A DNA stretch of 22,068 nt from a virus. The position numbers and the translations under genes were made by a program. Of the stretch, positions 16,461 through 20,251 are shown one piece after another. Each line of letters begins with the position of its first letter. The stretch's first letter is position 1. Where the stretch lies: positions 1 to 22,068 of IMG/VR virus record IMGVR_UViG_3300031364_000014; one strand, given 5' to 3'. The notes beneath the pieces are model-generated. The model was not told the DNA's origin, ran no database searches, and saw only the letters and a list, made by a program, of their open reading frames with translations.

Positions 16461-16678
16461 TCTATAGGCACAACCCTTTGTAACCGAATAGAACCACCTT
16501 CAAGTGAATTTATTTCCGCATATAAATCAACTATAGCTTTTCTTATTTCCGAAAGATCTGCACGAGTCAAAGATCGTTGACGCATAGAATAGGCTTGACC
16601 TTGTAGAACAGCAGTTTCAGCGGCAATATATTGAGATAATCGAGTTCTTGTCTCGGTTATACGCGTGGTATCTGTCAA
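16457..16678 (-). CDS. Small head-tail joining protein (gpW-like / DUF6148 type)
   Basis: A 73-aa protein: TRTRLSQYIAAETAVLQGQA, then YSMRQRSLTRADLSEIRKAI, then LYAEINSL. The middle reads like the family signature A-x-x-A-x-x-x-G-x-x-Y-x-x-x-x-R-x-LTRADLxxI. It lies between terminase and portal, the place of lambda gpW. The protein binds under the portal to stabilise packaged heads. The start is a TTG at 16678 that overlaps the lipoprotein stop as TTGA. No ribosome binding site precedes it, so translation is probably coupled to the upstream gene; no in-frame ATG exists near the start. Confidence 0.85.
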   Translation of the reverse strand: MTDTTRITETRTRLSQYIAAETAVLQGQAYSMRQRSLTRADLSEIRKAIVDLYAEINSLEGGSIRLQRVVPIE

Positions 16679-16977
16679 TCAATATTAATACAGCTTTTTA
16701 TCTTATCACACAAAGGCGCTGTTTGAATACAATTAGTATCAATAGACAAAAGAATATTTTTTTCCTCATTGCATTTTAAAAAGCATGAAGCAAAATCAAA
16801 TGTGTCAAAAAATACTTTTTGTACAGTCGAGTCTTCCCAACAATTCAAATACTCAACTGTCGCACAAATAATTGCGCAATTACGCGAGTCATCAGTTGTA
16901 CTTGGTAGTGGCTGTTGAATTGTTGAACACCCAAAAATGCAAACTAACGTAACAAACAGAACAAAAAAATATTTCAT
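16675..16977 (-). CDS. Cys-rich putative lipoprotein, 100 aa
   Basis: The N-terminus MKYFFVLFVTLVCIFGCS is a short basic start, a hydrophobic stretch and a lipobox (IFGC) with lipidation expected at Cys17. The mature part holds eight more cysteines, at 34, 38, 46, 65, 69, 83, 90 and 96, which form a twin C-x3-C pattern (CAIIC and CFLKC). This suggests a disulphide-linked helical hairpin in the periplasm. Cys-rich lipoproteins with that spacing are common in Myxococcota-like bacteria. It is the first gene after the structured gap and before gpW. A superinfection-exclusion lipoprotein is possible; an Rz1-type spanin is less likely because it has no Pro-rich body. Function unknown. Confidence 0.75.
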   Translation of the reverse strand: MKYFFVLFVTLVCIFGCSTIQQPLPSTTDDSRNCAIICATVEYLNCWEDSTVQKVFFDTFDFASCFLKCNEEKNILLSIDTNCIQTAPLCDKIKSCINID

Positions 16978-17017
16978 ATTCTTTTTGCCTTACAAATATA
17001 TAATTAGAAAATTTAGA

Positions 17018-17023
17018 ATTATA
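17018..17023 (-). promoter_or_regulatory. Possible -10 box TATAAT ahead of the head operon
   Basis: A perfect TATAAT sits 40 nt upstream of the lipoprotein start and right after the GCTTTTA tail of the nearer hairpin element. At 17-bp spacing the -35 position reads TGGCTG, a poor match, so this would need an activator or may be chance in AT-rich DNA. Confidence 0.25.
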
Positions 17024-17026
17024 GGT

Positions 17027-17085
17027 TAAAAGCTGTCTCACAGCCAGATTAACGGGGAACCTATAGGCTGTGAGACACCCCCGTT
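17027..17085 (-). ncRNA. Interleaved-helix RNA element, copy 1 (proximal to head genes)
   Basis: Minus strand, 5' to 3'. Helix I 5' strand AACGGGG (17085-17079), 1 nt, helix II 5' strand TGTCTCACAGCC (17077-17066), 8-nt linker, helix I 3' strand CCCCGTT (17057-17051), 5-nt linker AATCT, helix II 3' strand GGCTGTGAGACA (17045-17034), then GCTTTTA. The order of strands is that of a pseudoknot. The 1-nt link is too short to span a full 12-bp helix II, so the two helices may instead compete. Helix II plus the T-run also reads as a terminator. Copy 2 supports both helices by compensatory changes. Confidence 0.65.
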
Positions 17086-17124
17086 CACTAATAATACTAA
17101 ACTATTGAATAGAAAAAGACAAGA

Positions 17125-17181
17125 TAAAAGCGCCCCCTAGCCTGATTTGTGGTCGTTATTGGCTAGGGGGCAACCCCACAA
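17125..17181 (-). ncRNA. Interleaved-helix RNA element, copy 2 (distal)
   Basis: Minus strand, 5' to 3'. Helix I 5' strand TTGTGG (17181-17176), GGTT, helix II 5' strand GCCCCCTAGCC (17171-17161), 8-nt linker AATAACGA, helix I 3' strand CCACAA (17152-17147), ATCA, helix II 3' strand GGCTAGGGGGC (17142-17132), then GCTTTTA. The arrangement, linker lengths and tail match copy 1, which lies 39 nt further on. Four of six helix I pairs and four of eleven helix II pairs differ from copy 1, and each change keeps the pairing. Confidence 0.65.
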
Positions 17182-17222
17182 CAAGAAAGGAGACAAGAAC
17201 GAAGCACAGCACCCAATAATTA

Positions 17223-17441
17223 CTATAAGTCTGTTGGCCAATTACTGCAAGTAAAAAAACCAAGCCTCCTTAAATCAGATGCTCCAATAAAAATAGAATC
17301 TAAGTTTCTTGCAGTACTTCCAATAAGTATACCAGCTTCGGTAGCTACTGATTTAGGACAATAGCCCGTCTCTCTATCATTAATAGGATCTACAATAATA
17401 TTTATTCTGTCGCCTTTATTCACTCTTTTTATATTTTGCAT
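17223..17441 (-). CDS. Hypothetical protein, 72 aa
   Basis: I choose the ATG at 17441 (MQNIKRVNKGDRINIIVDPI), with AGGAA about 5 nt upstream, over the ATG at 17468, which lies inside the preceding small frame and lacks a site. The product is soluble-looking, with VDPINDRETGYCPKSV, then GILIGSTARNLDSIFIGASD and a short C-terminus LRRLGFFTCSNWPTDL. I recognise no family. It is the last gene before the gap with the two hairpin elements. Confidence 0.65.
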   Translation of the reverse strand: MQNIKRVNKGDRINIIVDPINDRETGYCPKSVATEAGILIGSTARNLDSIFIGASDLRRLGFFTCSNWPTDL

Positions 17442-17452
17442 ATTTTCCTGCT

Positions 17453-17566
17453 TTATAGTATGTAACAATTGTACAAGCCAATTGCGTTAGTTGCGCCAAA
17501 CCATAATACAAAAGTACTAAAAACAATCCTGTAATAATAAGGATTATTAAGTATATTATCAAGCAT
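17453..17566 (-). CDS. Putative 37-aa single-span membrane peptide
   Basis: The ATG at 17566 overlaps the end of the 56-aa gene by 8 nt (ATGCTTGA), and the TAA lies just before the ribosome binding site of the next gene. The peptide starts MLDNILNNPYYYR and continues with a hydrophobic stretch IVFSTFVLWFGATNAIGLYN, consistent with one membrane span. The upstream sequence is purine-rich (AAGAAGAAAAAGAAA) without a classical site. Its fit into the tight gene chain is the main support; function unknown, a small holin-like or inhibitor peptide being only one option. Confidence 0.45.
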   Translation of the reverse strand: MLDNILNNPYYYRIVFSTFVLWFGATNAIGLYNCYIL

Positions 17567-17729
17567 TTTTCTTTTTCTTCTTTTTATCTCGTCTCAAAAA
17601 ACCAACAAACATTGGTTTACTTTTATTCTCTCCACAATTACACACATAAGCACCATGTTCAAATACGTGTACTTTAAATCCTTTTTCATTTACATAACAA
17701 GGTTTATTATCACAAAATTCAAATTCCAT
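17559..17729 (-). CDS. Small Cys-rich, zinc-ribbon-like protein, 56 aa
   Basis: An ATG frame from 17729 to the TGA at 17561-17559, with AAAGGA about 11 nt upstream. The product begins MEFEFCDNKPCYVNEKG, then has FEHGAYVCNCGENK and ends in a basic tail RRDKKKKKKNA. Four cysteines (6, 11, 30, 32) could bind one metal ion. The CNC near an F-E-x-x motif resembles the CxC of two other small proteins in this window (at 21857-21612 and 20514-20251). The Lys tail suggests nucleic acid binding (inference). Confidence 0.65.
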   Translation of the reverse strand: MEFEFCDNKPCYVNEKGFKVHVFEHGAYVCNCGENKSKPMFVGFLRRDKKKKKKNA

Positions 17730-17745
17730 AACCACACAATCCTTT

Positions 17746-18099
17746 CTAGTAGACTACTCTAAAACAGAAATCAAAGCATTCTGTTTGAGCTATTTTAGAT
17801 TGTTCTTCTAAAGATAACATACCATGCATCTTCATATAGGCTTTTACATCTATAGTACTTAAACCTAATCTCATAAGCTGTATATTATTTGATTCTAATC
17901 TAGTAAATAGTGTTTGCATTTTAATAATTGTAATATGGTCCTCTTTATGGCTACTAGTATTAGGACATTTTTTATACCACCTACAATACACTACATATTG
18001 TTCTGTAGTCAAATTACTATAGTCTTCAGTAATAATTTCATCACAATTAAATAAACAGCTTACTACGTGGGCAACTCTATCTTTATTTGTAACTCTCAT
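17746..18099 (-). CDS. Hypothetical protein, 117 aa, coupled to terminase
   Basis: The ATG overlaps the large-terminase stop as ATGA. The product is mostly helical, with segments MRVTNKDRVAHVVSCLFNCD, then EQYVVYCRWYKKCPNTSSHK, and IIKMQTLFTRLESNNIQLMR. It has eight cysteines or so spread along its length and no signal peptide or membrane span. I do not recognise it. Its coupling to TerL suggests production together with the packaging motor. Confidence 0.8.
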   Translation of the reverse strand: MRVTNKDRVAHVVSCLFNCDEIITEDYSNLTTEQYVVYCRWYKKCPNTSSHKEDHITIIKMQTLFTRLESNNIQLMRLGLSTIDVKAYMKMHGMLSLEEQSKIAQTECFDFCFRVVY

Positions 18100-20060: not shown

Positions 20061-20143
20061 TAGAATAATATACTAAGTACAATCCATGTAAGCCACGCAG
20101 TAACAACAATGACAAGTAGTAAGTTTTTATTGTATAGTCTCAT
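20060..20143 (-). CDS. Putative 27-aa membrane peptide upstream of terL
   Basis: The ATG at 20143 has GGAG about 6 nt upstream. The peptide is MRLYNKNLLLVIVVTAWLTW followed by IVLSILF: a short basic start and one hydrophobic span to the end, so N-in orientation. Its TAA overlaps the terL ATG as TAATG. TerL has no ribosome binding site of its own, so this frame may serve chiefly to couple terL translation. A role as a membrane peptide in its own right is open. Confidence 0.6.
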   Translation of the reverse strand: MRLYNKNLLLVIVVTAWLTWIVLSILF

Positions 20144-20146
20144 TTA

Positions 20147-20251
20147 TTACTCCAGTAAAAATATTACTGTGTATATTTCCCATTTACAAAATATACACAA
20201 ATGATAACGATCACAAACTACTGATGATAGCGGAAATAATTTAGTACACAT
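20147..20251 (-). CDS. Putative 34-aa Cys-containing peptide
   Basis: The ATG at 20251 overlaps the previous stop as TAATG, and AGGTG lies 4-5 nt upstream. The peptide starts MCTKLFPLSSVVCDRYHLC and continues IFCKWEIYTVIFLLE, with cysteines at 2, 13, 19 and 22 (a C-x2-C at the end). The stop is followed at once by the TAA ATG of the 27-aa frame. A perfect 10-bp inverted repeat runs through it, so part of this stretch may be selected as structure rather than as protein. Confidence 0.45.
   Translation of the reverse strand: MCTKLFPLSSVVCDRYHLCIFCKWEIYTVIFLLE
20169..20198. repeat. Perfect 10-bp inverted repeat, AT-rich
   Basis: GTGTATATTT at 20169-20178 and AAATATACAC at 20189-20198, separated by 10 bases. 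It lies 26 bases before the 27-aa start in the minus direction. It could be an RNA hairpin or an operator; there is no U-tract after it. Confidence 0.6.

Follow-up and report, generated by a model that had tools for sequence, protein, structure and literature searches.

Genomic setting of the two elements

A gap ahead of the head genes of a contractile-tailed phage holds two GC-rich hairpins of one design, raising the question of whether they are RNA structures kept by selection and whether they end the late message or serve it in another way. We analysed IMG/VR record IMGVR_UViG_3300031364_000014, positions 1-22,068 (the whole 22,068-nucleotide stretch is called the window). The window carries genes for a lambda-type terminase GpA, portal, head maturation protease, capsid E, and tail sheath, on the minus strand throughout, and its GC content is 36%. 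Both elements lie in 245 non-coding bases between the end of a gene of 72-81 amino acids (17223) and the start of a lipoprotein-like gene (16977), on the coding strand, with co-oriented genes on either side. An earlier note took this to be the only non-coding gap, which is not exact: positions 20061-20250, upstream of terL, likewise have no long coding-strand open reading frame.

Copy A occupies positions 17181-17132 and copy B positions 17085-17034 of the minus strand. Read 5' to 3', each consists of a helix I strand, a short link (GGTT in A, G in B), a helix II strand, a linker of 8 nt in both copies, the second helix I strand, another link (ATCA in A, AATCT in B), the second helix II strand, and GCTTTTA. 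The lipoprotein start codon lies 57 nt downstream of the end of copy B. The sequences, coordinates, strand order, and two-copy geometry are all as the earlier note gave them. In the feature list, L002 (39.2 kb) and L003 (10.6 kb) are two related contigs.

17223-17441, minus strand: upstream gene, 72-81 aa, 78% identity to its L002 counterpart
17176-17181, minus strand: copy A, helix I 5' strand, TTGTGG, identical in L002 and L003
17161-17171, minus strand: copy A, helix II 5' strand, GCCCCCTAGCC, identical in L002 and L003
17153-17160, minus strand: copy A, linker L2, AATAACGA, 8 nt
17147-17152, minus strand: copy A, helix I 3' strand, CCACAA
17132-17142, minus strand: copy A, helix II 3' strand, GGCTAGGGGGC
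17125-17131, minus strand: GCTTTTA tail after copy A; the same heptamer stands in the same place after copy B
17079-17085, minus strand: copy B, helix I 5' strand, AACGGGG, its core AACGGG invariant in the relatives
17066-17077, minus strand: copy B, helix II 5' strand, TGTCTCACAGCC, with two compensated pairs and a paired insertion in L002 and L003
17058-17065, minus strand: copy B, linker L2, TATAGGTT, 8 nt, complementary to 17020-17027
17051-17057, minus strand: copy B, helix I 3' strand, CCCCGTT
17034-17045, minus strand: copy B, helix II 3' strand, GGCTGTGAGACA
16978-17033, minus strand: GCTTTTA tail and 80% A+T leader, up to the lipoprotein start
16675-16977, minus strand: downstream gene, 100 aa, cysteine-rich, with a lipoprotein-like signal; the head-tail adaptor gene adjoins

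Neither the upstream 72-81 aa protein nor the downstream 100-aa protein has a family match, and tblastn of both against named phages found nothing. The cysteine-rich 100-aa protein with its lipoprotein-like signal is an insertion in the head operon and might be a superinfection-exclusion or other surface moron. Several small genes lie between terL and the adaptor gene, and their content varies even among L002, L003, and the window; the order in the window lineage is small genes after terL, RNA elements, lipoprotein gene, adaptor gene. The region is part of a lineage-specific insert lying between terL and the head-tail adaptor, with the elements at the seam between accessory insert and head genes. 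The mosaic small-gene interval spans 17223-18099 in the window, 3057-4511 in L002, and 4180-5040 in L003. A 117-aa gene is identical in the window and L002 and divergent in L003, an extra 203-aa gene is present in L002, and an 81-aa gene is, near its end, identical in L002 and L003.

Support for helix II and helix I

The topology was described as helix I, 0-6 nt, helix II, and a loop of 13-30 nt containing the second strand of helix I. Under this descriptor copies A and B score 46 and 50.5. Shuffling gave lower maxima: 45.5 when the whole strand was dinucleotide-shuffled 350 times (7.7 Mb), and 43.5 in 14,461 shuffles of the gap. The copies also rank as the two strongest hairpins in the window. 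Helix II, with a stability of about -21 to -25 kcal/mol, is therefore real beyond doubt in both copies.

For helix I, the loop and 5' flank were shuffled with helix II fixed, counting Watson-Crick pairs. The resulting P was 0.15 for A and 0.006 for B, so copy A alone is not convincing. An empirical background came from 656 kb of phage DNA, in which 112 strong hairpins have a loop of 14-24 nt. Four of these, A and B included, have a helix of at least 6 pairs within 6 nt upstream; of the other two, one belongs to a repeat array and one to GC-rich DNA. The background rate of such pairing is thus ~2% (about 2 of 110 unrelated strong hairpins), against 2 of 2 here. Because helix I is rare among strong hairpins, yet occurs in both copies, and the 8-nt linker is common to them, we regard it as probable, not proven.

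Pairing in related phages

L002 and L003 are the only two other IMG/VR contigs with homologues; two exact DNA patterns gave them, as did searches with the lipoprotein, the 72-aa protein, terL, and portal. These two are identical through the gap except for a 2-base indel in the leader, and part of the neighbouring 81-aa gene is identical at synonymous sites, despite a 25% difference at terL third positions. We therefore count them as one haplotype that has spread by recombination. Relative to this haplotype, copy A is unchanged, loops included (2 of 79 sites differ, both in the far tail), and the leader after B differs from that of L002 by 1 substitution and 1 indel in 56 nt. Copy B, of 52 sites, differs by 12 substitutions and 2 indels, near the terL third-position divergence of 29%.

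Helix II of copy B keeps its pairing through these changes. In L002 and L003 one C-G pair has become T-A and one T-A pair C-G, insertions of one base in each strand face one another and make a new G-U pair, and the terminal pair is lost. Sliding the alignment out of register lowers the paired cells from 93% to 32-50%; a shuffle control of the pair counter was not beaten (135 of 500), a comparison in which two sequences cannot discriminate. The orthologues indicate that pairing of helix II in copy B is kept by selection, on covariation that is small in number because there are only two independent haplotypes. In helix I of copy B, six pairs are invariant, the inner pair is lost, and the outer pairs have changed on one side only, giving no covariation between the orthologues. 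The earlier proposal that both helices covary, and that base pairing itself is kept, thus stands for helix II, while helix I shows no such changes. The compensation between A and B on which that proposal drew is nearly circular and not independent evidence, since both stems are perfect and an alignment of any two perfect stems will show apparent compensation.

The G-U pairs of L002 are paired in coding-strand RNA only and are A-C mismatches on the other strand, so coding-strand RNA is favoured as the working form. They also bear on a reading of the hairpins as a DNA-level element (a packaging, replication, or recombination site) or as a GC-rich mobile palindrome. Such a reading has in its favour the nearby packaging genes, the presence of GC-rich palindromes in a 36% GC genome, an 8-bp direct repeat TCTTGTCT that flanks copy A and is kept in L002, and the segment shared by L002 and L003 down to the synonymous sites of the 81-aa gene, which implies that it moves by recombination. 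However, the G-U pairs fit the coding strand only, helix I would have no role in a DNA palindrome, the copy A core and the B 3' flank occur nowhere else in IMG/VR, and no similar DNA was found in named phages (distant blastn) or, for copy A, in plasmids. We consider a DNA-level role unlikely. The direct repeat stands on both sides of copy A (window 17106-17200, minus strand), also in L002 and L003, and is like a target-site duplication.

A descriptor scan of ten relatives by terL and portal, at about 40-58% identity (L004, L007-L010, L012, L018, L019, L022, and L024), did not find the element; in the stretches read, a small pre-portal gene follows terL more or less directly. No further copy was found in the remainder of the L002 contig, and in the genome collection a terL query returned no relative and a portal query one distant Clostridia locus. 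The spread of the element is narrow, which limits its reach at present.

Feasibility of the proposed pseudoknots

The earlier note held that full simultaneous pairing would be strained and that the helices may therefore compete. A steric search with rigid A-form helices and a linker limit of 6 Å per link, coarse in its beads and approximate sugar and base positions, gave clash-free placements of both helices. Out of 60,000 trials each, 61 were clash-free for A, 13 for B when its helix I had 6 pairs, and 117 for L002 copy B, likewise with 6 pairs. The same rigid-helix search found none for B with the full 7 + 12 pairs and none for short-linker controls. In the model the two helices can pack alongside one another, the 8-nt linker spanning helix II from end to end, suggesting that the pseudoknot is feasible with slight fraying. 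Simultaneous pairing is therefore less strained than supposed, and competition between the helices is not required. Both hairpins are probably knotted by pairing of the loop with the bases just upstream, as H-type pseudoknots.

Two other candidates were dropped. An HDV-like ribozyme would seem to have no room for its P3 hairpin and linkers that are too short, and programmed frameshifting does not suit elements outside any reading frame. The copy B linker TATAGGTT is fully complementary to downstream AACCTATA (17020-17027, minus strand), a possible alternative helix; this third helix has a chance P of 0.002 in the window, its 6-bp core is kept in L002 and L003, and it is absent from copy A.

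Transcription end or message boundary

Helix II had been likened to a terminator stem with a weak T-run. Both copies indeed have the GC-rich hairpin of an intrinsic terminator, but the U-tract directly after the stem is lacking (tail nT 0.5-2.4). Carafa-type D-scores are negative throughout: copy A has -35, or -16 if a further wobble pair is counted, copy B -47, and the L002 copy B -53, against +2.6 for an arbitrary strong-terminator control. Further, the copy B tail in L002 and L003 is AGCTTCTA while the stem is preserved, which argues for a function of the stem other than U-tract termination. Given the negative D-scores and this altered tail, intrinsic termination is not favoured, and weak attenuation is possible.

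The two hairpins could still be tandem weak intrinsic terminators or attenuators, with helix I as an early-forming competitor, such that some polymerases stop before the head genes. GCTTTTA is common to the 3' sides of both stems, an extra U-rich stretch follows A, and a fold without pseudoknots allows pairing between the tail and the helix I G-run. In addition, unrelated phages carry the 10-bp stem of A; both of the cases read lie in late operons, and T-runs follow the stem in some of these phages (TTTTTTT in L070; TTTTCC in L071 and L074, after the major capsid gene). These points are set against the D-scores, the broken T-run of copy B in L002 and L003, the 2 nt between stem and T-run, and a terminator scan, covering loops up to 8 only, that gave no match. 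On balance we think such attenuators rather unlikely.

The stem-only pattern, CCCCCTAGCC/GGCTAGGGGG, was found on 12 other IMG/VR contigs (L068-L079) of unrelated phages in about seven groups, often with an 18-nt loop. The loops are unrelated in sequence, and unlike A and B these hairpins have no helix I (4 pairs at best). Loops of exactly 18 nt occur in L068, L069, L072, and L077 (near 887, 5451, 218, and 4530) and in L071, L074, and L078 (near 6221, 3510, and 1352); the L069 hairpin lies in the terL-portal interval and that of L074 after the major capsid gene. The 12 contigs were rejected as one family, since they lack helix I and form about seven groups, and were treated as convergent hairpins. 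The recurrence of the stem with an 18-nt loop may reflect convergence among late-operon terminators or else a hairpin family not yet described.

The structure is real, is maintained by selection in one copy, and corresponds to no catalogued RNA; its likeliest role is to set a boundary within the late mRNA, not to end transcription. Our leading reading, held tentatively at a probability of about 0.35, is that the tandem structures form a post-transcriptional boundary, either a nuclease barrier or a processing or stability signal. Both would be transcribed together with the late operon, each as a hairpin of 11-12 pairs with its loop paired to its own 5' flank and helix I bracing the hairpin base. 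They would divide the message between packaging and accessory genes on one side and lipoprotein and head genes on the other; after transcription they would block an exonuclease or act as a processing or stability signal, and the two message segments would be kept at different levels.

Several observations are consistent with such a boundary. Both hairpins belong to the coding strand and have genes of one orientation on either side; helix II is highly stable, and the two helices are sterically compatible. Copy B has changed at 12 of 52 sites, yet two double changes and a paired insertion preserve its stem, which also outlasts the T-run in L002 and L003. The L002 G-U pairs can form in coding-strand RNA alone, and the D-scores are negative. 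However, conservation of copy A extends to its loops, more than a plain nuclease barrier requires, and hints at a specific binding partner. A new phage cis-acting RNA, with tandem pseudoknots, a fixed 8-nt linker, and each hairpin loop pairing its own 5' flank, might be bound by a phage or host protein and so set the balance of packaging and accessory against head gene expression, although we regard this version as doubtful.

Relation to known RNAs

Rfam scans of the window, the gap, and each element, strict and permissive, gave only chance-level or eukaryotic miRNA hairpin matches, none at gathering threshold, bearing out the earlier statement that no named RNA class matches. The best non-miRNA match of copy A is DUF3800-IX RNA (RF02968), with a score of 17.7 against a threshold of 36.8. 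The likeness, a GC-rich 11-bp stem with a large loop and then U's, is confined to the stem, and no DUF3800 gene was seen near the elements. The put RNA of phage HK022, which the earlier note had proposed, resembles the elements as a structured RNA in a phage operon; it consists of two adjacent simple hairpins, belongs to early operons, and acts by binding RNA polymerase, with processive antitermination as the result.

The gene 32 operator of phages T4, T2, and RB69 is an H-type pseudoknot in a phage mRNA leader (PMC535899, PMC3014915). Copy B, a probable pseudoknot, likewise stands 50-70 nt upstream of a start codon and has an A+U-rich stretch after it, and the elements could be a translational operator in which a phage protein binds the pseudoknot and a leader containing the ribosome site. 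Copy B lies 57 nt from the start codon, ahead of an 80% A+T, nearly invariant leader. The gene 32 system combines an unstructured leader carrying UUAAA repeats with an autogenous repressor; here the leader is partly structured (mean unpaired 0.41) and has no such repeats, and the small lipoprotein-like downstream product is unrelated and matches no nucleic-acid-binding family. Moreover, there are two pseudoknots rather than one, helix II has 11-12 pairs, and an 8-nt interhelix linker replaces the short coaxial junction. An operator of this kind seems distinctly unlikely.

Tandem H-type pseudoknots ahead of a gene are also found in the type III ToxI antitoxin RNAs (PMC8860590), where conserved tandem repeats with short stems are followed by a terminator and the ToxN endoribonuclease (PMC8860590). 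All of these traits are lacking here: copies A and B differ, and no toxin was found among the neighbouring genes by Pfam, PHROGs, NCBIfam, or PADLOC. A small non-coding RNA precursor, or an RNA bound in trans in the manner of antitoxin pseudoknots, would suit the tandem arrangement, the full conservation of copy A including its loops, and the resemblance of A to DUF3800-IX RNA, which is weak and falls below threshold (E 0.1). No endoribonuclease toxin or defence gene adjoins, however, no promoter match was found in the gap, and A and B are unlike in sequence, making this origin very improbable. Since defining features of gene 32 operators and of ToxI were looked for and not found, we claim membership in neither, and keep a gene 32-like mode of working as a rival.

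A 2010 review named the T4 gene 32 pseudoknot as perhaps the sole viral example in translational autoregulation (PMC3014915). If our reading is true, a tandem, differently built late-operon pseudoknot would be a second design beside gene 32, and would offer a small, testable system for how a phage divides a long late message into segments.

Three perfect inverted repeats, CTACACACAAA, TCACACACATG, and TAACACACAAC, lie in the early region at about 5365, 6675, and 13875 of L016 (30365, 31675, and 38875 of the L002 contig). They have ACACAC/GTGTGT arms and are candidate operators of a phage regulator.
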